DNA from: Anaerolineales bacterium
Lineage (GTDB): Bacteria; Chloroflexota; Anaerolineae; Anaerolineales; Villigracilaceae
Length of the DNA stretch: 64,000 nucleotides
Assembly: GCA_016789025.1 (NCBI GenBank)
Contig: JAEURC010000021.1
Span: 1-64,000, forward strand
Direction: 5' to 3'
Part shown: piece after piece, positions 2,803 to 57,139 of the stretch
Position numbering within the stretch: position 1 is the first letter of the stretch
Layout: the number at the start of each line of letters is the position of its first letter
Translations under genes and position numbers: made by a program
Notes under the pieces: model-generated
Seen by the model: the letters and a program-made list of their open reading frames with translations, nothing else
What the model was told of the DNA's origin: nothing
Databases searched by the model: none

Positions 2803-3666
2803 ATGAAAATCTTCGTCACAGGCGCGACGGGATTCACAGGCTCGCGCGTTGTTCCACTCCTCCTCAAAAACGGATACGAAGTCCGCTGTCTTTACCGCGC
2901 CTCCAGCGACCGTTCGACTCTTTCCGATCCCAAAATCGAGTGGGCGCAGGGAGATTTATCCGATACTCAAAATTTGACTATCGCCATGCAAGGCACAGAC
3001 GCCCTCGTCAACATCGCCTCGCTCGGCTTCGGTCACGCGGATTCGATCATCCGCGCCGCGAAAGATGCGGGCATCAAGCGCGCTCTCTTCATCAGCACAA
3101 CCGCCATCTTCACGCAATTGAACGCCAAGAGCAAGAAAGTCCGCGTGGCGGCGGAACTTGCCATCGAAACGAGCGGACTGAAATACACCATCCTGCGCCC
3201 GACGATGATCTACGGCAGTCCGCGCGACCGCAATATGTGGCGGCTGATTCGCTTTATTCGTTTCTCGCCGATTATCCCTGTTTTCGGCGATGGGGAGTCT
3301 CTGCAACAACCCATTTACGTGGACGATGTCGCGCAAGCAGTGATGAGTTGCGTATCGAACGACAAGACGATTGACAAGAGTTACAACATCGCAGGGAAAC
3401 ATCCGCTGACGTATAACGATGTCATTGACACGATTGCCAGACAGATGAACAAGCGCGTGTGGAAACTTCACGTCCCCTCGAAGCCTGTTGTCGCCATGCT
3501 TTCTCTTTTTGAGCGTGTGCGGATTCCATTTCCCATCAAAGCGGAGCAAGTTCTACGGCTGAACGAAAATAAGGATTTCAGCTTTACCGAAGCGCAAAAG
3601 GATTTTGGGTTTAGTCCACTGGCGTTTGAGGAGGGGATAGAAAATGAGTTGTATAATTTAGCCTAA
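2803..3666 (+). CDS. NAD(P)-dependent epimerase/dehydratase (atypical SDR)
   Basis: 287 aa. The N-terminus carries the dinucleotide motif TGATGFTGSRV (about residues 6-16) of extended or atypical short-chain dehydrogenases. Downstream are LVNIASLGFGH, ISTTAIF and a substrate-domain segment LRPTMIYG (about 131-138). The classical catalytic YxxxK is not evident, so it is closer to the NmrA-like/atypical SDR group. It may modify a nucleotide-sugar or act as a redox-sensing regulator. Context after a glycosyltransferase favours sugar metabolism. The stop codon TAA (3664-3666) shares its last base with the ATG of the next gene. The terminal segment EAQKDFGFSPLAFEEGI reappears, diverged, at 4299-4379. 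Confidence 0.85.
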   Translation: MKIFVTGATGFTGSRVVPLLLKNGYEVRCLYRASSDRSTLSDPKIEWAQGDLSDTQNLTIAMQGTDALVNIASLGFGHADSIIRAAKDAGIKRALFISTTAIFTQLNAKSKKVRVAAELAIETSGLKYTILRPTMIYGSPRDRNMWRLIRFIRFSPIIPVFGDGESLQQPIYVDDVAQAVMSCVSNDKTIDKSYNIAGKHPLTYNDVIDTIARQMNKRVWKLHVPSKPVVAMLSLFERVRIPFPIKAEQVLRLNENKDFSFTEAQKDFGFSPLAFEEGIENELYNLA

Positions 3667-4001
3667 TGGAACTTCCAAACAAATCCAAAGCGCATGTTCC
3701 GCTGGAGAAAATCACGGAATATCTGCTTTCTGAAACCCATGCGGTGGGAAATCCGAAAGCAAGATACTTTCGCTCGTATGGTTTCGACAATGAGAATGCG
3801 GGCGATCTGGTACAAGGATTGATAGCAATCGCCCAAAATTCTCCAGTGGAAAATTCCCAGAAGTCGGTGTTTGGTGTGAAATATGTATTGGACGGCGAAC
3901 TGGAGACACCAAATGGTGTTATGATTTGGGTGAGGACAATCTGGATTATCGAGAACAACACAGAGATACCCCGCTTTGTGACGGCTTACCCAGCCGAGTA
4001 G
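3666..4001 (+). CDS. DUF6883 domain protein
   Basis: 111 aa. The sequence matches what I recall of DUF6883: an N-terminal helix, KARYFRSYGFD, a helical LVQGLIAIAQ segment, then a beta-rich core with FGVKYVLDGEL, GVMIWVRTIWII and a final RFVTAYP. DUF6883 domains occur both free-standing and at the C-terminus of polymorphic toxins, and are suspected nucleases. That role is not established. Its start overlaps the stop of the SDR gene by one base, implying translational coupling. It is followed 10 bases later by a DUF4926 gene, a frequent neighbour as far as I remember, so a toxin-antitoxin-like pair is plausible. Base composition is more AT-rich than the flanking genes. Confidence 0.7.
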   Translation: MELPNKSKAHVPLEKITEYLLSETHAVGNPKARYFRSYGFDNENAGDLVQGLIAIAQNSPVENSQKSVFGVKYVLDGELETPNGVMIWVRTIWIIENNTEIPRFVTAYPAE

Positions 4002-4011
4002 GAGAACGAAG

Positions 4012-4242
4012 ATGATCAAGGAACTGGATACCGTTGTACTTGCCAAAGACATAAAAGAACACCAACTTACACGCGGAGATGTGGGGGCGGTGGTGCATGT
4101 ATACGAAGGCGACAAAGCCTTTGAAGTTGAGTTTGTGACAGGCGTTGGAAAGACCATTGCCGTCATAACCCTTCACGCGGGGGATATTCGTCCCATGCAA
4201 CGCGCAGACATCCTCCACGTGCGCGAGTTTGCGCCAGCATAA
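4012..4242 (+). CDS. DUF4926 domain protein
   Basis: 76 aa. Small beta-barrel-like protein with the DUF4926 pattern: ELDTVVLAKDI at the start, a GDVGAVVHVYEG turn, AFEVEF, and a C-terminal VITLHAGDIRPM. The start is well supported by AGGAG 9 nt upstream. DUF4926 proteins are generally encoded next to small DUF-type partners and are suspected immunity or antitoxin factors. That is inference here from pairing with the DUF6883 gene. The pair ends in a strong terminator at 4251-4290, so it forms a self-contained unit with the preceding ORF. Confidence 0.75.
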   Translation: MIKELDTVVLAKDIKEHQLTRGDVGAVVHVYEGDKAFEVEFVTGVGKTIAVITLHAGDIRPMQRADILHVREFAPA

Positions 4243-4250
4243 AAGTCTGT

Positions 4251-4290
4251 AGAACTCGGAGATTTCACAAATCTCCGAGTTCTTTACTTA
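4251..4290 (+). terminator. Rho-independent terminator after DUF4926
   Basis: Perfect 15-bp stem (4251-4265 and 4269-4283) with a 3-nt CAC loop, followed by TTACTTA. It begins 9 nt after the DUF4926 stop codon. Confidence 0.85.
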
Positions 4291-4298
4291 CATACATC

Positions 4299-4379
4299 GA
4301 ATCGCAAAGGGATTTTGAGTTTCGTCCGCTGGTGTTTGAGGAGGGAATAACAAACGAAGTCGAGGTTTTTCAATCGTAA
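4299..4379 (+). pseudogene. Remnant 3' end of a second SDR gene copy
   Basis: Reads as 26 codons plus TAA: ESQRDFEFRPLVFEEGI and on. It aligns without gaps to the C-terminus of the SDR at 2803-3666 (EAQKDFGFSPLAFEEGI). The first 61 bases of the aligned stretch match at about 50 positions by eye. There is no start codon or upstream coding sequence, so this is a gene tail separated from its body by the DUF6883-DUF4926 unit. Confidence 0.75.
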
Positions 4380-4382
4380 AAA

Positions 4383-5450
4383 TTATGGGTCAAGTTTGTC
4401 AATTACTTTGCGACTTTGTTTCATAAAATTAATCAATATCTTAATCTGATCGTCAAATGACTTAGTAAAAAAAGAAACTTCTTTGTCTGTTAATTTTAAT
4501 TGGGCAAGCCAATATACAAGATGGGCAACCCTTGTTATCTCCCCATGCCCTAGATCAGGCGGGGGGTTTAATCTGCGCCTAATCGATGCATTTCTTATTG
4601 AATGGCGTCTCATGGGTGCTCTAAACAAGACCATGTCTGGTAAATTAATATCTATGAAAAAATCGTATCTAAATTCTATGTTGAATCCTATAGCAGTATA
4701 TTCTTTCTTTAATCCCCAAGTTCTGTTAGAAAAACCAAAGCTATTATTTGGAAATGTACTTTCAATTGAAAAAGCCATAACATTTAACAATTTACGCAAG
4801 GGAATTAAGTATGGATCATCCCTGAGTTCGCTTGAGTGTTTCATTGGTCGAAAACTTAAGCTATCCTTGCCTTCTCGTTGGAGATATTTTCTTAGCGACG
4901 GTGAAACTCGTGTGGTTGCTGGTTCAAGTGCCAAATAACGATGATGAAGAAAACCTAGAAATTTGATAACTCTCATATGCGACTCTTTGGATTTTAAACA
5001 ACTACTTGAATCTTCAAGCCACTTAGCAATCTGATACCATCGAATATAACAGTCGGCTCCTTTAGAAGATTTCATACGGTATTTTGAAATTAGCAAAAGA
5101 AGAGTCTTGTTATTACTACTGCGTTTTAAGGCACGTTTATACCGCTGGATTTGGCTTTTCTCCATACGCGCCTCAATCTTGTTTTCGATATAAATTAAAT
5201 AGTTGGGCGCAACTATTTCAATATCTGGGCGTCCAAGGGAAGTGGCTACCTGCGTCCTTATTACTACTTCGTTGGGATTATAATCTTTCAAATTAAATTT
5301 GCGTTGAGTTAATAGATTAATTAGTCTCCATGCAAATTGACTCTCGTTTGCTACTAAGTACCTTAACAAAGATGCAAACGCTTCCGTAGTGTAATTTTCC
5401 TCTTGTCTTTTGGTCTTTTTGAAGTTAGTTATCAGTAAATTTTCATTCAT
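4383..5450 (-). CDS. PD-(D/E)XK nuclease superfamily protein
   Basis: 355 aa. The N-terminal third carries the full nuclease signature: a motif-I Glu in TTEAF (E23), D76 in GRPDIEI, then E89-N-K91 in YIENKIEAR, and a QxxxY element (Q100 to Y104) typical of RecB-like/PD-(D/E)XK DNases. The remaining 230 residues are not recognised. They contain a basic segment near residues 270-295 and could bind substrate or a partner. It overlaps the upstream 5443-6090 gene by 8 bases (ATGAATGA), so the two are translationally coupled and likely act together. The pair is visibly AT-richer than its neighbours, which suggests horizontal acquisition. A defence or stress role is inference; the fold call is firm. 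Confidence 0.8.
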   Translation of the reverse strand: MNENLLITNFKKTKRQEENYTTEAFASLLRYLVANESQFAWRLINLLTQRKFNLKDYNPNEVVIRTQVATSLGRPDIEIVAPNYLIYIENKIEARMEKSQIQRYKRALKRSSNNKTLLLLISKYRMKSSKGADCYIRWYQIAKWLEDSSSCLKSKESHMRVIKFLGFLHHRYLALEPATTRVSPSLRKYLQREGKDSLSFRPMKHSSELRDDPYLIPLRKLLNVMAFSIESTFPNNSFGFSNRTWGLKKEYTAIGFNIEFRYDFFIDINLPDMVLFRAPMRRHSIRNASIRRRLNPPPDLGHGEITRVAHLVYWLAQLKLTDKEVSFFTKSFDDQIKILINFMKQSRKVIDKLDP

Positions 5451-6090
5451 GATTTCCCTCAGAAAGAATTTCTTTTAGGGTTAAGGATATGCACTTGGCT
5501 ATTTTATTGGCCTCTTTGTTATCTTTTCTTAGTTCAGGACACAATTCAATGTGGAATGCTAACCAATTATTAGTGTTTATTGTTACGGCTTCTGATGCTT
5601 TGTAATATATCGTGTCATAATCGCCAGATATAGAATAATTTCTCTTGAAATGATGTTGCTTTGCATATTTTTGAAGTTTTTGAGCAAAATCCTTGGATAT
5701 GGCCTGCCGATGTTTGCCTGAAGAGATTTCGATATCAGCTTTGGCGTTTTCCCCGCTATGCCCGTGGATCTCAACCAAAATCTGCGGCCTATTATGAGAT
5801 AGCCAAGTTAAATAATCAGTATTTTCTTCCCTATTCTTTACACTTGGATCTGGTTTATTGATATCGAGAAAATAATTTGAGGCTATTATCAGCGAGCTTT
5901 TAAGGTTTGTTGCGATTGTGAGAGCTATATAACCAACAGACTCATCGGAGACTTTATGCCTTTCACAAGGTAAATTCGAAATACCTGCTGGCGCATGATG
6001 TATAGCAGATACTACTAGATTAGCCTGTTCGCCTGATTGAACAAGAAAGAAACTAATCCCCGATTCATTGAGAAGTTTGTTGAGTTGCAT
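5443..6090 (-). CDS. N-formylglutamate-amidohydrolase-like protein
   Basis: 215 aa from the chosen start. ATG at 6090 is preferred over 6102 because TGGAG lies 8-12 nt upstream. Metal-site-like motifs occur in the order of the N-formylglutamate amidohydrolase/PGA-hydrolase fold: SAIHHAPAG (H31, H32), SDESVG (D49, E50), FLDINKP (D76, N78) and LVEIHGHSG (H109, H111). A C-terminal FHIELCPELR may close the fold. A zinc-dependent amidase acting on a peptide-like or glutamyl substrate is plausible, but the substrate is unknown. No signal peptide is seen, so it is cytoplasmic. It is the first gene of a two-gene operon with the nuclease, and a TATACT box on the minus strand (6123-6128) could be its -10. 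Confidence 0.6.
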   Translation of the reverse strand: MQLNKLLNESGISFFLVQSGEQANLVVSAIHHAPAGISNLPCERHKVSDESVGYIALTIATNLKSSLIIASNYFLDINKPDPSVKNREENTDYLTWLSHNRPQILVEIHGHSGENAKADIEISSGKHRQAISKDFAQKLQKYAKQHHFKRNYSISGDYDTIYYKASEAVTINTNNWLAFHIELCPELRKDNKEANKIAKCISLTLKEILSEGNHE

Positions 6091-6122
6091 ATCTGTCTCC
6101 ATGAGAAAATAAGTTGATATTT

Positions 6123-6146: not shown

Positions 6147-6210
6147 GAGGTCCGTTTGAACGGACTTTGTATGTATCCCGATGATTCATCGTCGGGCGGA
6201 ACAAAGGGAT
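6147..6210. repeat. Two adjacent hairpins in the divergent intergenic region
   Basis: GTCCGTTTGAACGGAC (first hairpin) is followed by CCCGATGATTCATCGTCGGG (second hairpin). The second is bracketed by TTTGT and ACAAA. It lies between divergently transcribed genes. Similar GTCCG...CGGAC hairpins occur at 10675-10694. Confidence 0.6.
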
Positions 6211-6268: not shown

Positions 6269-7309
6269 ATGTCATCTCTCATAACATTCTCCATCTTAAT
6301 CCTCCTCTCCTACCTCCTCATCTACCTCATCCGCCGTTACGCGGAGCGGCGACAGATCCTCGACCATCCCAACGAACGGAGTTCACACGTCACACCCACG
6401 CCACGCGGAGGAGGGGTGGCGATCGTCGTCCTCGTAGCGGGAGCAGGCTTATGGTCCGCGAGTGAGGCGGGTTTATATCCCGCGCTGATCTATCTCGTCT
6501 GCGGAGTCGTCATTGCATACCTCGGTTGGCGCGACGATGTTTCGTCGCTATCGCCAAAGATTCGCTTTGCAGTGCAGGGACTCGTCGCGGCGGTCTCGAT
6601 CTATGGGCTGGGATATTTCAAAACGGTCACGATCCCGTTGTTCGGCGAATTGAATTTGGGCATCGTCGGAATCATCATCACGTTTTTATGGATCATCGGA
6701 CTCACCAACGCCTACAACTTCATGGACGGCATTGACGGCATCGCGGGCGGCGTCGCGTTCGCGGGCGGGCTGGGTTGGATGATGCTCGCGTCGAACATGC
6801 AAAACGGTTTTGTGTTTGCGGTCGCGCTTGCCATCGCCGCGAGTAGTTTGGGTTTTCTCGCGCACAATTGGCATCCCGCAAAAATTTTCATGGGCGACGT
6901 TGCCAGCACGTTTCTCGGTTATACCTTTGCGGTTCTGCCGTTGCTCTCTGCCGATCAGGGCGGCGACGCGCTCATGCTCGGCACGCTCCTTATGTGGACG
7001 TTCATCATGGACGCGGGCGTCACGTTCATCCGCCGCGCGCTCAAACGCGAAAATGTTCTCGCCGCGCATCGCACGCATCTGTATCAACGACTCGTCATCG
7101 GCGGGTATCCGCATCACATCGTCAGCGCGTTGTATCTCATGCTCACGCTTCTCGCGGGCGTGCTGTCATTCGAATGGTCGCGCGGCAGTCAGTTCGCTCC
7201 GCCATTGATCGTCATCGGACTTCCGCTCATTTGGATTATCCTCTCGAGTCATGCAAAATCTTTAAACACGAAGGACACAAAGTACACAAAGGAAAACCTT
7301 AAGTCTTAA
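6269..7309 (+). CDS. WecA/MraY-type phospho-N-acetylhexosamine transferase
   Basis: 346 aa polytopic membrane protein (about 10 hydrophobic segments). It carries the PNPT family motifs: DHPNERSSHVTPTPRGGG (about 33-50), the aspartate pair in YLGWRDDVSS, the NAYNFMDGIDGIAGG motif (about 147-161), and HNWHPAKIFMGDVAS followed by a His-rich HRTHLYQRL segment. It should transfer a HexNAc-1-phosphate or similar from UDP-sugar to undecaprenyl phosphate, initiating surface polysaccharide synthesis. The C-terminal 17 residues (LNTKDTKYTKENLKS region) are encoded by the palindromic word repeat at 7264-7342, so the native tail seems to have been replaced. The lipid-carrier reaction class is confident; the sugar is not. 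Confidence 0.9.
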   Translation: MSSLITFSILILLSYLLIYLIRRYAERRQILDHPNERSSHVTPTPRGGGVAIVVLVAGAGLWSASEAGLYPALIYLVCGVVIAYLGWRDDVSSLSPKIRFAVQGLVAAVSIYGLGYFKTVTIPLFGELNLGIVGIIITFLWIIGLTNAYNFMDGIDGIAGGVAFAGGLGWMMLASNMQNGFVFAVALAIAASSLGFLAHNWHPAKIFMGDVASTFLGYTFAVLPLLSADQGGDALMLGTLLMWTFIMDAGVTFIRRALKRENVLAAHRTHLYQRLVIGGYPHHIVSALYLMLTLLAGVLSFEWSRGSQFAPPLIVIGLPLIWIILSSHAKSLNTKDTKYTKENLKS

Positions 7310-7342
7310 TTCCGTTGTGACCTTCGTGTCCTTTGTGGTAAA
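7264..7342. repeat. CACGAAGG/CACAAAG word inverted repeat
   Basis: Left arm AACACGAAGGACACAAAG and right arm CTTCGTGTCCTTTGTGGT, with AAAGGAAAACCTT at the left centre. It begins inside the WecA-like gene, encodes its last residues, and ends 4 nt before the heparinase ATG. It belongs to the same family as 2729-2795. Confidence 0.7.
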
Positions 7343-7345
7343 AAA

Positions 7346-9457
7346 ATGTTCAATCGGATAAAAAACTTCGCTTCTCTCTACCTTCAACTTGGTCCGCGTT
7401 GGTCAGCCTTTCGCGCCGCCTACGCCTTTCGCCTCCGCACGGGACTCATCCGTTTGCAGATGCCGATGGGCGAGTGGAGTGATTATAAGCGCCTCCTCGC
7501 TGAGCGGAGTGACGAACGCTCTTCTCGTCTCGCAGTCGAAGCGCGAAGATTGCCAGATAACATCTCATGGGATAAACAAAAAGCCATTGACGAAGCGGAT
7601 CGCGTCCTCAACGGCGAAATAAAATACTTTGCACACGAGTGGATAAAAACAGGCTTTCCTCCCAATTGGTCTCACGATTATGTCACCCTGAGTGGCGCCC
7701 CGCGCCACGAAGGGTCTCCACCCTCGCAGTCAGAGACTCTTCGCTCCGCTCAGAGTGACATGAACAAACACTGGTCTCAAATTTCCGACGACTCCCCAAC
7801 AGACATCAAATTCATCTGGGAGCCGAATCGCTTCGCCTTCGCCTACACCCTCGTCCGCGCTTATGTCGCCTCTCACGATGAAAAATACCCCGAAGCCTTC
7901 TGGACTCTCGTCGAAGATTGGGCAAAGCACAACCCTCCCAACACGGGACCTAACTGGATGGACGGACAAGAGATCGCCCTCCGCCTCATGGCATGGACGT
8001 TCGGCTTTTTCCAATTCTTTAATTCTCCCTCCTCCACTTCCGCCCGTAAAGCAAAATTTATTTTGCTGGTCGCCGCCCAAGCCGAGCGCGTCTACAAAAA
8101 CATCGGCTACGCCATCTCCACGCGCAGTAACCACACCATCAGCGAAGCCTTTGGCTTATGGATGGTCGGTTTCCTCTTCCCTGAACTCAAACACGCCGAG
8201 AAATATCTCGCCCTCGGACGAAAACTCCTCGAACGATCCGCCGCCGAACAGATATTCCCCGATGGCGCTTACTCGATGTACTCCCTCAACTACCATCGCT
8301 TCATTCTTCACATTTACCTTTACATGATTCGACTTGGCGAACTCAACCAGTCTCCAGTCTCCAGTCTCATTTATCAACGAGTCGAATCTTCCATCGAATA
8401 TCTCTCCCACCTCATCAATCCCGAAACAGGCGAGATGCCCGTCTACGGCTCGAACGACGGCGCGCTTGTATTGCCATTGAATAACTGCGACTTCACCGAC
8501 TACCGTCCGCTGTTGCAGTTAGGCTGGTACATCACCAAAAAAGAATTCCTCTTCGAGTCTGGTCCATGGGATGAAGATATATTTTGGTTATGTGGTGGGG
8601 AAGCCCTCATCCCCAGCCCTTCTCCCAGCGGGAGAAAGGAGTCAGAATCCCCCTCTCCCAATGGGAGAGGGGTTAGGGGTGAGGGTGAATCTTTCCCTCA
8701 CGGCGGAATCTACCTCCTCCGCTCCTCCAGCTCCCATGCCCTCATCCACTGCGCGGACTACACCTCCCGTCCCTCCCACGCCGACCAACTCCACATGGAC
8801 TTGTGGATTCACGGTCACAACCTCGCCATTGACGCGGGAACCTATCTCTATAGCGGACAACCCCCTTGGCGCAACGGACTCGCACACACGTCCGTTCACA
8901 ACACCGTCACTGTAGACGGCAAAGACCAAATGACCATGGTCAGTCGCTTCACATGGACGAATTGGTCACAGGGCAAAGTTCTCAAGCACGATGAAAATAT
9001 TTGGCAAGGCGAGCACGATGGCTATAAGCCTGTATTTCATAAACGAGCCGTGATGGCTCTCGAAGGTGATCGCTGGCTTGTGATTGATAATCTCGTTGCG
9101 AACGAATCACATGATTACAAACTTCATTGGTTGCTTGCTGATTTTCCCTTTGAGCAAAAAGAAAATTTGATTTTGTTGTCGTTGGATGGAATGAAATACA
9201 AAATGCAAATTGGGAAGGTTGAAGGCAACGGAAGCTTCTCTCTCGTCCGCGCTGACCCCAACTCCACGCGTGGATGGCGTTCACGCTACTACGGTCACAA
9301 AGAACCAGCCATTTCTCTGATGCTCGAAGCGACTCAACCCCAAGTCACTTTTTGGAGTTTCTTCGGGTTAGAGGATGATGTTGTTGAAGTTGTGGGGGAT
9401 GAATTGAAAATCAATTCAAAGATAATTCCGTTGGTTGAGCAATCTCACACGCGCTGA
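7346..9457 (+). CDS. Heparinase II/III-like (alginate lyase) family protein
   Basis: 703 aa. An N-terminal alpha/alpha-toroid domain (about 50-400) contains GPNWMDGQEIALR, STRSNHTISEAFGLWM and an LNYHRFILHIY helix. A C-terminal beta-sandwich heparinase II/III domain (about 450-690) has HADQLHMDLWIHGHNLAIDAGTY and HNTVTVDGKDQM, the usual catalytic and metal-region pattern. It probably cleaves or modifies an acidic polysaccharide, and neighbouring WecA-like and GT genes suggest self-made surface polymer. There is no clear signal peptide. Three repeat insertions are translated in frame (about residues 52-68, 112-138 and 420-447). The TGA stop lies within a fourth repeat. Without the inserts the length would be typical. 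Confidence 0.85.
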   Translation: MFNRIKNFASLYLQLGPRWSAFRAAYAFRLRTGLIRLQMPMGEWSDYKRLLAERSDERSSRLAVEARRLPDNISWDKQKAIDEADRVLNGEIKYFAHEWIKTGFPPNWSHDYVTLSGAPRHEGSPPSQSETLRSAQSDMNKHWSQISDDSPTDIKFIWEPNRFAFAYTLVRAYVASHDEKYPEAFWTLVEDWAKHNPPNTGPNWMDGQEIALRLMAWTFGFFQFFNSPSSTSARKAKFILLVAAQAERVYKNIGYAISTRSNHTISEAFGLWMVGFLFPELKHAEKYLALGRKLLERSAAEQIFPDGAYSMYSLNYHRFILHIYLYMIRLGELNQSPVSSLIYQRVESSIEYLSHLINPETGEMPVYGSNDGALVLPLNNCDFTDYRPLLQLGWYITKKEFLFESGPWDEDIFWLCGGEALIPSPSPSGRKESESPSPNGRGVRGEGESFPHGGIYLLRSSSSHALIHCADYTSRPSHADQLHMDLWIHGHNLAIDAGTYLYSGQPPWRNGLAHTSVHNTVTVDGKDQMTMVSRFTWTNWSQGKVLKHDENIWQGEHDGYKPVFHKRAVMALEGDRWLVIDNLVANESHDYKLHWLLADFPFEQKENLILLSLDGMKYKMQIGKVEGNGSFSLVRADPNSTRGWRSRYYGHKEPAISLMLEATQPQVTFWSFFGLEDDVVEVVGDELKINSKIIPLVEQSHTR
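7499..7553. repeat. In-frame repeat insertion A in heparinase gene
   Basis: GCTGAGCGGAGTGACGAACG followed by CAGTCGAAGCGCGAAG, the GAGCGGAG/GTCGAAGC word family also present at 9452-9490 and 52450-52545. It is translated as AERSDERSSRLAVEAR without breaking the frame. Confidence 0.65.
7681..7760. repeat. In-frame palindromic element B in heparinase gene
   Basis: Terminal inverted repeat TGTCACCCTGAG / CTCAGAGTGACA enclosing further short hairpins (GTGGCGC / GCGCCAC). It is an 80-bp unit of the TGTCATxCTGAG family also seen at 41195-41273 and 58643-58736, translated as LSGAPRHEGSPPSQSE and on. Confidence 0.75.
8604..8685. repeat. In-frame cloverleaf element C in heparinase gene
   Basis: Outer stem CCCTCATCCCC / GGGGTGAGGG enclosing two hairpins, CTTCTCCCAGCGGGAGAA and CCCCTCTCCCAATGGGAGAGGGG (split as CCCCTCTCCC / GGGAGAGGGG). 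Translated as LIPSPSPSGRKE...SPSPNGRGVRGEGE. This is a wide-spread environmental-genome repeat type, in frame here. Confidence 0.75.
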
Positions 9458-53883: not shown

Positions 53884-53934
53884 AGGAGAAGGATGGAACC
53901 ATTGTGATGTTGTCTATTCGAGGATGGGTTGGAA

Positions 53935-55446
53935 ATGACTGATAAGGCCCCTTCACTTAAACAATTCGAAGATTTCGACTTTCGTGAACTGCCCATTGGC
54001 GTCTATATGACAGCGCTTGATGGGCGGTTTGTTGTTGCAAATCGAATTGTTCGCGAGATGTTGGGTCTGCCTCTCGAAGGGAGGGTAGAAGCAAATATTA
54101 TCAATTATTATGCCAACCCTGCTGATCGTGATGTGGCAATCGCAGAGGCAAAAGCTCTTTCTAAACAGGGCATGCACTCGGATCGCGGAATCTTGCATTT
54201 GAAGGTTATGGATCGGAACTTGTATGTGGAAGATTATTGCAAGATTATGCAAGATGAGAATGGTCTTGTTATTGGATTTGTAGGCTGTATGGTGGATATC
54301 ACAAAATCCTTTGAAGCTGGACAACATGAAAGAGAACTGCGTGAACGGGTCGATGAACTGCGGTTTGATATCGGGCGAATTTTGCATGCAAACACCACGA
54401 CCCTTGTAATGGTAAAGCAGACTCTGGATGCAGTGGTTGAGGCATTTGAGCCGAAACCCTATGCAGATATGCCGGTTCCGCTTGCTGATGAGGTTGAAAC
54501 TATGCTGACAGAGTATGCGAATTTATTGGCAAATGCCATCGAGAGATTAACTCGAAGCGCTGATGAGAAGCGCCGCCTACAAGCATTGGCGGTTTCTGAC
54601 TGGGACAAATTGCACAATTATGTGTCTTTTTTGCGAGAATTCAAAGAACGAATTCCTACTCCTGAATCGTTCCCTGCAACCTTGAGAAAATTAGCGAATA
54701 GCGTCGGGCTTATCTATTCAGGAATTGTTCCCGGTAATCTGCCGCGTGAGCCAGTACGTGAAGTCCAAAACACGGCATGGCACTTGGAGCGGTTTGCGAA
54801 TCTTGTTGAAGTGCTAGAAACCCGTGCTACTGTAATCCAAATGGATTACACCATCCATAGCCTGCGTGAATTTGTTACATCGGATAAGCGTGAGCCAGTC
54901 CTTTTTGTGAGACTGAACGTCAAGTTGCTGATTGAGGAATCCGCTAAACGAATGGCTGAATATGCCCGCAGTCTGAAGATTGATATTGATCGCAGAGATG
55001 TGGAAGATGTGAGCATAAGAGGCAGCGAGAGGGACATGTTGCGTGCTTTGACGAATATGCTACATAATGCCATAAAATATTCTTGGCGTCGTGACCCTGA
55101 GCGGACAAAGCCGGCATGGGTATCCATTCGAACCTCTGTGAAAGACAAATGGTTGTACATTGAGTTTGAGAATTGGGGCGTGCCAATTAAGCGTGAAGAG
55201 ATTGAACGTGGAAAAGTGTTTGAACTCGGTTACCGCGGAGAACTATCGAAAGATCGCGGTCGTCTTGGAACTGGTATTGGACTGACAGATACCCGCCGCG
55301 TGGTGGAAGCCCATGGCGGGAAAGTCGAAATAGAGAGTCATCCGGCGTTTCGAGGTTCCCAGAATGAAAAGAGTGGGCAGTATTATCATCAACCTTTTCT
55401 TACCCGGGTCACCATCATTTTGCCTTTCGCAGATGTTGGAAAATAA
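53935..55446 (+). CDS. PAS-containing histidine-kinase-like protein
   Basis: 503 aa from ATG 53935, with a TTG at 53929 as alternative. PAS domain (about 12-115: ELPIGVYMTALDGRFVVANR and VIGFVGCMVDITKSFE), a helical middle region (about 120-360), and a C-terminal HATPase_c domain with an N-box-like NMLHNAIKYSW (about 380-390), ENWGVPI (D/G1-like) and GRLGTGIGLTDTRRVVEAHGG (G2). A classical phospho-His H-box is not obvious: no HELRTP or HDxx pattern is seen, only EVQNTAWHLERF (about 280). No membrane span, so cytoplasmic. It is the first gene of a three-gene AT-richer operon with the receiver-like gene downstream, 19 bases apart. Confidence 0.8.
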   Translation: MTDKAPSLKQFEDFDFRELPIGVYMTALDGRFVVANRIVREMLGLPLEGRVEANIINYYANPADRDVAIAEAKALSKQGMHSDRGILHLKVMDRNLYVEDYCKIMQDENGLVIGFVGCMVDITKSFEAGQHERELRERVDELRFDIGRILHANTTTLVMVKQTLDAVVEAFEPKPYADMPVPLADEVETMLTEYANLLANAIERLTRSADEKRRLQALAVSDWDKLHNYVSFLREFKERIPTPESFPATLRKLANSVGLIYSGIVPGNLPREPVREVQNTAWHLERFANLVEVLETRATVIQMDYTIHSLREFVTSDKREPVLFVRLNVKLLIEESAKRMAEYARSLKIDIDRRDVEDVSIRGSERDMLRALTNMLHNAIKYSWRRDPERTKPAWVSIRTSVKDKWLYIEFENWGVPIKREEIERGKVFELGYRGELSKDRGRLGTGIGLTDTRRVVEAHGGKVEIESHPAFRGSQNEKSGQYYHQPFLTRVTIILPFADVGK

Positions 55447-55465
55447 CTTTTTGGGAGGTCGAACT

Positions 55466-55963
55466 GTGAAGACTAGAGTTTTATGGGTAGAAGACAGCGC
55501 GCGTTTGGAGTTACGTAACCTCACGGGGCCAATTTATATCAGTGGCGAGTACGATATGAATCTTGCCGAAGATGCGACAAGCGCAGTAAGTTATCTGCAG
55601 TCAAAAGAGTACGACGCAATCATTCTGGATATGCGCCTGCCGCCCGGTATTGATGATTTTTGGATTAAGATTTATCAAGAGAGGGGCGAGGATAAAGCAG
55701 ACGCCCGCTTGGGTTTGGAACTCGCAAATTGGATGTTCAGCGGGCGCCCTGATTATGCTTTTACGCCTCCCGGTTGGATCGAACGATATCACGTGGGTGT
55801 GTTTACCGTTGAAAATGATACCAACCTTCATGTTCGACTAAACGAGTTGGGAATCAATGTGTTCCAGCACAAGGCAGCTGGCCTTGTGGATACCATTCTG
55901 ATTGATATCATCACAAGGATCAGGGAAGAACAGCCCGTCTTTAGGAACAGGAATGGTGGGTAG
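55466..55963 (+). CDS. Atypical response-regulator receiver protein
   Basis: 165 aa from GTG 55466, chosen for GGGAGG 8-13 nt upstream; the frame opens at 55364 within the kinase gene. Receiver-like fold: KTRVLWVEDSARLEL (acidic E/D pair), phospho-acceptor Asp in YDAIILDMRLPPGIDDF (about 48-65), followed by an insertion IYQERGEDKADARLGLELANWM and FTVEN...; the conserved Lys is in FQHKAAG near the end. It is longer than a standard CheY domain and has an unusual loop after the Asp. Lies between the kinase and an unknown membrane protein in one operon, so probably receives phosphate from the kinase and signals to that protein. Confidence 0.75.
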   Translation: MKTRVLWVEDSARLELRNLTGPIYISGEYDMNLAEDATSAVSYLQSKEYDAIILDMRLPPGIDDFWIKIYQERGEDKADARLGLELANWMFSGRPDYAFTPPGWIERYHVGVFTVENDTNLHVRLNELGINVFQHKAAGLVDTILIDIITRIREEQPVFRNRNGG

Positions 55964-57139
55964 ATGGAAATTCCGTTTGATGGAATACTAACCCTTCTGA
56001 TTTTCCTTGTCGGCATTCCTGCTTTAGTTTTGCAGTTGATTTCAGCGGCAGAACGCCGGGCAGCTATGAAGAAAGGCGGATTGGATGTTCAATCTTCCCT
56101 GAAGATTGCGTTATTTGTAATAGGGATCGGATTGATATTGCAATTCGGGTATGCTTATTGGGGAAAAGGAAATGACATTAAGTCGATTGTTCAGCAGGCA
56201 ATATGGTTAATTGTTTTTGTTCCTTTAATCGTTCTGGCGTTACGGGTTGCAAAAAGAATACCAGAACAATACGGTCGTCGTGAGAAAATTGTCGAAAAGT
56301 TGACCTTAGGTATCTTGGATGGGCTGGAGAAAAAGATACGTATTGGTGGTGGTCCGTTTTCTGACCTTGCCAACCTAGGCAAGCAATGTGATCCTGGTCA
56401 GGAACGGGAAATGGTGGTCATCGCCTATAAAAATATCGTCAAGGCGGTGATTGCTCATCCTGCCTATAAAGGCGATTCCTTCGAGATGTTAATTGACGAA
56501 CTAGTGCATATGCTGGCATCAGATCCGGAGTCCAAGGATTTGAACAATTACGAAATTGCCATCAAGATACTTTCTGCCATTTTATCCGCAAAGCCACAAA
56601 TGGAATCTGGTTATGACAGGCGACGTGCAATCCACGCCGTCAGTAAGTTGGGGCAGACATTGATTGTAAATTTTAAATCTGTGGAGAGGGATAACATCAT
56701 CTTGGAATATATTGACTCATTGGAGCTCGCCTTACCCAGGCAAGAAATGTTAACGGAAGTTAGCCAGGCATTATTTGAGATTGGCGTATGCGCTGCCGGG
56801 GAAAGCCACGACTTTGTCTATGTTGCGATCCTTGATAAAATGACTGCGCTTGCTGAAGCACGCTCGCCACTACCTTCCGAATTTACCACCGACTTCTTTG
56901 GCCTTCTAGCTCATTTTTGGGTTGAAGATGGAAGCCGTAAAAATCTTGCGCGGGAAAAGTTTGACGATGTCAAAAAATTTTTACCTGGACCCATTATCCC
57001 AATTCTAGAAACTGCGCGGACGCATCTGATCAAAACAATGTATTTCGATGAGGCAGATAAGTTGTTCCAAGTAGCGGAGGATTTCAGGATGCTGGAGAAA
57101 GAGTTAAAGAAACCTAATTCGCATAAGAAGAAAAAATGA
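55964..57139 (+). CDS. Membrane-anchored helical protein of unknown function
   Basis: 391 aa. Three membrane helices near the N-terminus (about 6-27, 45-66, 76-93), then a 300-residue cytosolic, mostly alpha-helical region (RAIHAVSKLGQTLI, LEYIDSLELAL, VSQALFEIGVCAAG and similar) that could be a helical-repeat or phosphotransfer-type domain. It ends in a Lys-rich tail (KKPNSHKKKK). I do not recognise the family. Starts one base after the receiver stop; it is the last gene of the three-gene operon and followed by a strong terminator (57138). It is the natural effector of the system, but activity is unknown. Confidence 0.75.
   Translation: MEIPFDGILTLLIFLVGIPALVLQLISAAERRAAMKKGGLDVQSSLKIALFVIGIGLILQFGYAYWGKGNDIKSIVQQAIWLIVFVPLIVLALRVAKRIPEQYGRREKIVEKLTLGILDGLEKKIRIGGGPFSDLANLGKQCDPGQEREMVVIAYKNIVKAVIAHPAYKGDSFEMLIDELVHMLASDPESKDLNNYEIAIKILSAILSAKPQMESGYDRRRAIHAVSKLGQTLIVNFKSVERDNIILEYIDSLELALPRQEMLTEVSQALFEIGVCAAGESHDFVYVAILDKMTALAEARSPLPSEFTTDFFGLLAHFWVEDGSRKNLAREKFDDVKKFLPGPIIPILETARTHLIKTMYFDEADKLFQVAEDFRMLEKELKKPNSHKKKK

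Follow-up and report, generated by a model that had tools for sequence, protein, structure and literature searches.

An overlapping nuclease and amidohydrolase-like gene pair in a variable epimerase-wecA interval of an Anaerolineales genome

We report that two overlapping minus-strand genes in a 64,000-nucleotide stretch of DNA from an Anaerolineales bacterium (contig JAEURC010000021.1, hereafter the window) most likely constitute a horizontally acquired cassette of defence type, the defence function being suggested by the genomic context. One gene encodes a PD-(D/E)XK nuclease and the other a zinc-amidohydrolase-like protein, and both lie between an NDP-sugar epimerase gene and a wecA-like gene, in an interval whose content varies across the genus. 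We consider it rather probable that the pair is one horizontally acquired unit of cargo in a hotspot collecting small toxin-antitoxin and anti-phage modules, in which the nuclease would be directed against invading DNA and the hydrolase would be an accessory.

The nuclease and hydrolase genes

The nuclease gene (4383 to 5450, minus strand; 355 aa) matches the Pfam family PDDEXK_4 (PF14281) with E=1.3e-9 and 38.7 bits against a cut-off of 22.3, and a profile search of its own genome recovered PDDEXK_4 at 1.1e-9. In an alignment with two distant relatives the residues P75-D76, E89-x-K91 and Q100-xxx-Y104 are invariant, which bears out the complete PD-(D/E)XK site with QxxxY described in a first-pass annotation of this DNA. 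By motifs and family the putative DNA-cleaving part of the pair is this PDDEXK_4 protein. The PADLOC model PDC-S26 also matches, although only in part (E=2.4e-8, model positions 79-149 of 413, or about 71 positions), and on four records of a plasmid collection the nuclease found partial matches only. Foldseek searches with the predicted structure returned restriction endonucleases and Hjc weakly, every one at E >0.01; as the core of the model is of moderate confidence (pLDDT about 80) and the C-terminal half lies mostly below 50, these fold matches are taken as supportive only. The C-terminal domain, which had been put at 230 residues of unknown type, measures nearer 180-190; it has no named match, its low-confidence model presents no recognisable ligand-binding fold, and one relative shares a short C-terminal stretch of it only.

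The open reading frame of the hydrolase-like gene extends from 6102 to 5443 on the minus strand (215-219 aa, depending on the start). Translation probably begins at Met5 (6090) and not at 6102, since a GGAG lies six bases upstream of this codon and the homologues start at the same Met. No Pfam or NCBIfam family claims the protein above cut-off: PF05013 is unreported at E up to 1 for this protein and at E up to 0.1 for two closer homologues, and Amidase_3 (PF01520) reaches 15.8 bits against a cut-off of 27. PADLOC likewise gave no match to the hydrolase, and comparison with the sequences of solved structures yielded nothing useful for either protein of the pair. Alignment of 13 homologues, drawn from other Anaerolineales, Desulfosarcina and one Halobacteroidaceae bacterium, showed that H35, D53-E54, D80, N82, E111, H113, E125, H184 and E186 are invariant. 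The DE and DxN motifs first noted in the sequence thus stand, while HH and HxH each reduce to one conserved histidine, H36 and H115 being variable, so that the conserved set of the family reads H/DE/DxN/ExH/HxE. An AlphaFold model built from a six-sequence input (pTM 0.78) resembles Amidase_3, poly-gamma-glutamate hydrolase and N-formylglutamate amidohydrolase in a structure search, and on realignment the best match was the N-formylglutamate amidohydrolase 2odf (VIA Z 15.2 over 186 residues), with 2q7s at Z 12.2. The original guess of an N-formylglutamate-amidohydrolase-like protein therefore proved apt as regards the fold, although the PF05013 profile does not match the protein. Judged by predicted fold and conserved residues, the protein would be an intact amidohydrolase, zinc-dependent and of the fold class shared by N-formylglutamate amidohydrolase, PGA hydrolase and Amidase_3; its His / Asp-Glu / His / Glu set resembles what we take to be the site of zinc amidohydrolases of the same fold. 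It should be noted that the known members (2odf/2q7s, PghP/YndL and Amidase_3) share the predicted fold at Z 12-15 but only about 10-17% identity, with no profile match above cut-off, and that the present family differs from them in being small and rare, in its length of about 210 residues and in its own invariant residues.

The two genes overlap by 8 bases (5443 to 5450, minus strand), exactly as first annotated, and translational coupling across the overlap is likely. The AT-rich island recognised at the outset was also confirmed: the GC content of the two genes is 0.36-0.37 and their GC3 of 0.32 is the lowest pair of values among the 42 long ORFs of the window, for which the reference mean is 0.62 (sd 0.09). 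The overlap, the common strand, the identical GC3 and the absence of both genes at this site in relatives make it probable that they are transcribed together and entered the genome jointly and recently. A phage or plasmid origin was considered and rejected, as no relatives of the hydrolase were found in the phages, plasmids or viral contigs searched, phage DNA gave no match to the pair, and the nuclease had nothing beyond the partial plasmid matches mentioned above. Two further AT-rich genes lie at 53929-57139 (GC3 0.43 and 0.45); one encodes a PAS/histidine-kinase protein and the other is a 391-aa ORF that matches no Pfam family.

Cargo of the epimerase-wecA interval and distribution of the pair

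The left border of the interval is the epimerase gene (2803 to 3666, plus strand; Pfam Epimerase E=3.5e-24), a neighbour conserved in the genus, and the right border is a wecA/MraY-like glycosyltransferase 4 gene (6269 to 7309, plus strand; PF00953 E=6.9e-36); the locus around the epimerase reads as an exopolysaccharide locus. Searches of genus genomes with the flanks showed that the interval between these genes is variable and that at the empty sites of relatives the epimerase directly adjoins the wecA-like gene. Only 47 bases separate the matched flanks in G010 and about 86 in G009, and G006 is nearly empty. In the window the slot holds first a unit composed of a DUF6883 gene (3666 to 4001, plus strand; PF21814 E=2.2e-27) and a DUF4926 gene (4012 to 4242, plus strand; PF16277 E=3.4e-22), and then the nuclease-hydrolase pair. 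The names given to cargo elsewhere come from Pfam and PADLOC matches or from a reading of the ORFs, and the survey covers resolvable slots, several genus genomes having the border genes rearranged or on different contigs. The slot of G013 contains TumE (PF20126), DUF4926 and an IS1595-type zinc-ribbon gene with P63C; that of G011 DUF2442 and AIPR (PF10592); that of G002 DUF4926 and a possible antitoxin remnant; and G008 has a PIN gene pair immediately before wecA. A NucS_C nuclease matching PDC-S11 (PADLOC E=4.8e-43) occupies the slot of G015, and by reading a close homologue lies on the wecA-side contig of G017, a genome which also has a VapBC-like PIN/RHH pair and DUF6883. ParE/HTH cargo is present in G005 and, by sequence similarity, in G004, which also carries a type II restriction enzyme (E=5e-113) and a methyltransferase. 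Nearly all of the named cargo is thus of toxin-antitoxin, restriction or candidate-defence type, and a defence-type role for the pair gains support from the position of its AT-rich island in such a hotspot. Genome G004 has two wecA-like genes (L043:4989-6005 and 715-1686, about 60% and about 77% identical to that of the window) which flank its ParE/HTH and restriction-modification cargo, so that a duplication of the hotspot's right border may have occurred there.

The pairing of the two genes was then sought in other genomes, starting from the hydrolase homologues, from PF14281 and from the nuclease itself. A recurrent two-gene system had to be rejected, as the pair was found in the window's genome alone. 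Of the genomes carrying a hydrolase homologue, the five tested (G075, G088 and those of L006-L008) all lack a PDDEXK_4 gene. When 301 genomes of the order were drawn for each search, the two draws being assumed to contain identical genomes, the hydrolase profile occurred in 10 and PDDEXK_4 in 13, the two lists meeting only in the window's genome. In the genomes examined the hydrolase homologues never adjoin a PDDEXK_4-type nuclease elsewhere; they are mostly stand-alone genes with ordinary neighbours, as in G589, where by reading these are purine synthesis genes. The neighbourhood survey proposed with the initial annotation found homologues unlinked and a pair restricted to this genome, two outcomes which that annotation had named as refuting its proposal; it also placed the site in a defence and toxin-antitoxin hotspot. 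That no named system pairs these families agrees with PADLOC, which offers no match for the hydrolase and the partial PDC-S26 match for the nuclease. No mention of PDC-S26 was found in the literature searched, and no link between N-formylglutamate amidohydrolase and phage defence was recognised there.

Such a distribution leaves room for the explanation, which we rate at somewhat under an even chance, that a housekeeping-type amidohydrolase and a PDDEXK_4 nuclease are unrelated passengers, joined by chance on one fragment and without a joint function. The stand-alone homologues, the five genomes lacking PDDEXK_4 and the single coincidence of the family lists are what this explanation would predict. 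The 8-base overlap on one strand with identical GC3, the joint presence of the genes in a slot otherwise holding compact functional modules, and the fact that distant relatives of the hydrolase likewise overlap a DNA-binding defence gene (see below) all argue against it.

Epimerase-tail repeats and the proposed mode of insertion

The cargo units of the interval are set apart by direct repeats of about 52-65 bp of the epimerase 3' end, which are about 75-91% identical. In the window, copy 1 (3588 to 3647, plus strand) lies in the last 60 or so bases of the epimerase gene itself, and copy 2 (4298 to 4357, plus strand), a displaced 3' end 83% identical to copy 1, lies between the DUF6883/DUF4926 unit and the pair; a search of the window's own genome returned this copy at E=1.1e-11 and found no additional one elsewhere. 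Two to four copies are present in G000, G002, G004, G005, G007, G011, G013 and G017, essentially at this locus alone. For most displaced copies the left border of the repeat is identical in position, and four of them, in four genomes, are immediately preceded by GCGG(A/G)TG or GCGGTG, the gene itself differing at this place. Between the pair and wecA there is no further tail copy, and the right boundary of the pair's unit is therefore not a clean repeat. Neither an integrase nor a recombinase was recognised in the cargo intervals read, nor an intI, and the repeats, read by eye, have no attC core motifs. REP-like hairpin-forming sequences adjoin the tail repeats (window 4251-4283 and 6150-6200) and are found in similar places in relatives, and dispersed repeats of about 80 bp (window 7262-7345, 7680-7761 and 8604-8685) match many places in the genus genomes.

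Tail repeats bordering successive inserts, together with the empty sites of relatives, match the pattern of a tandem gene-tail island. Cargo would accordingly arrive by insertion at the 3' end of the epimerase gene, duplicating about 52-65 bp of its tail. Such a course would amount to site-specific integration of units carrying no integrase; its footprint is seen in the repeats, and its enzyme is a putative one. Partial gene duplication by homologous or illegitimate recombination would be the other source of such repeats, and we regard it as a possible though not a favoured one. Recombination by homology has to be kept in view since the displaced copies of G004 and G005 reach 110-125 bp into the epimerase gene, further left than elsewhere, and it would suit the lack of a recombinase in any cargo unit; it does not readily explain why most copies share a left border, why the GCGG(A/G)TG flank is common to four genomes, or why full-length repeats are missing for eight other gene tails of the window, which gave short weak matches only.

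The arrangement has a parallel within the Chloroflexota in the ssrA islands of Dehalococcoides. In these tandem islands the insertion point is marked by a motif directly upstream of the displaced repeats, and many units lack an integration module, integrase-less islands there having been called 'cis-mobilizable' (McMurdie 2011, PMC3146451). Both sets of islands consist of tandem units between direct repeats of a gene 3' end, with a motif to the left of the repeats (PMC3146451). The present target, however, is a protein-coding epimerase gene, the units comprise 1-3 genes with no integrase found in any of them, and the cargo is made up of toxin-antitoxin, restriction and nuclease genes as opposed to dehalogenases. 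The defence integration hotspots of E. coli are similar in that one locus receives strain-specific defence cargo (PMC10121019), but the cargo here is much smaller, has no phage or integrase genes and is separated by gene-tail repeats. If the hotspot reading is true, one short stretch beside the epimerase, read across the genus, would yield small modules of toxin-antitoxin and defence type, some of them as yet without a name, and integrase-less tandem gene-tail islands would extend from Dehalococcoides ssrA to a protein-coding target and to defence cargo.

Defence neighbours of the relatives

Relatives of the nuclease are found inside a type I restriction operon of a Shewanella plasmid, in the order hsdM-hsdS-X-hsdR, and beside restriction genes in G064 and G504, where the neighbouring ORFs were judged by reading. 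The present protein shares with PDDEXK_4 / PDC-S26 the PD-(D/E)XK core with QxxxY and relatives in or beside type I restriction operons, but its match to PDC-S26 is partial and its gene is overlapped by that of a hydrolase. The partial PDC-S26 match is in keeping with these defence-type neighbours. The restriction-operon relatives suggest that the nuclease would act against invading DNA. For the hydrolase, in what is the weakest step of the proposal, we infer an accessory enzyme carried with the nuclease, which may modulate it or act on a metabolite or peptide of the cell.

In two Anaerolineales genomes, G638 and G640 (regions L089:5134-6836, L090:4640-6294 and L090:302-4523), the hydrolase has a distant relative, longer than itself, whose gene shares 4 bases with that of a DUF4007 (SspB-like) or DUF4007-DUF4268 protein. 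A profile made from these relatives alone recovers the window's hydrolase at E=1.4e-5. In G640 (L090) the relative adjoins QatA (E=5e-137) and QatC (E=6e-109), and tyrosine-recombinase-like ORFs occur in the region of the DUF4007-linked relatives. A paper which mentions no such amidohydrolase describes DUF4007 as a DNA-binding component of the BREX and Ssp systems (PMC12839542). The overlap with DUF4007, with QatA/QatC in G640, lends plausibility to a link between the hydrolase and defence; a wider search gave no DUF4007-linked hydrolases beyond G638 and G640, which may be one lineage.

The same overlap, with QatA/QatC, the overlap of the pair itself and the hotspot context could also speak for a genuine module of two genes, for defence or of toxin-antitoxin type, whose hydrolase would control the nuclease by producing or removing a signal, either a small molecule or a peptide. 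We hold this to be unlikely, as the pairing with nucleases is not conserved and the C-terminal domain of the nuclease offered no ligand-binding fold. The compact defence or abortive-infection module of the first-pass annotation is consistent with the hotspot and with the occurrence of the nuclease family in restriction operons, and lacks support as regards recurrent pairing. More speculative still, and in our judgement improbable, is the broader reading that this small family of zinc amidohydrolases has repeatedly been recruited by overlap beside DNA-targeting defence proteins. The result would be an undescribed module, with the metallo-amidohydrolase as working partner of a protein that recognises or cuts DNA, spread by integrase-less units attaching at the tail of a protein-coding gene; the reading draws on the PDDEXK_4 nuclease here and on DUF4007/DUF4268 in G638/G640. 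If the hydrolase of the cassette truly works with the nuclease, a metallo-amidohydrolase would join the known partners of defence systems. Two other neighbourhoods of hydrolase homologues, both named by reading, may be recorded: in Desulfosarcina alkanivorans (L007:4589-9894) the gene lies near a NUDIX hydrolase, an endonuclease V and an ADP-ribosylglycohydrolase, and in L008 it directly follows an ADP-ribosyltransferase-like ORF.
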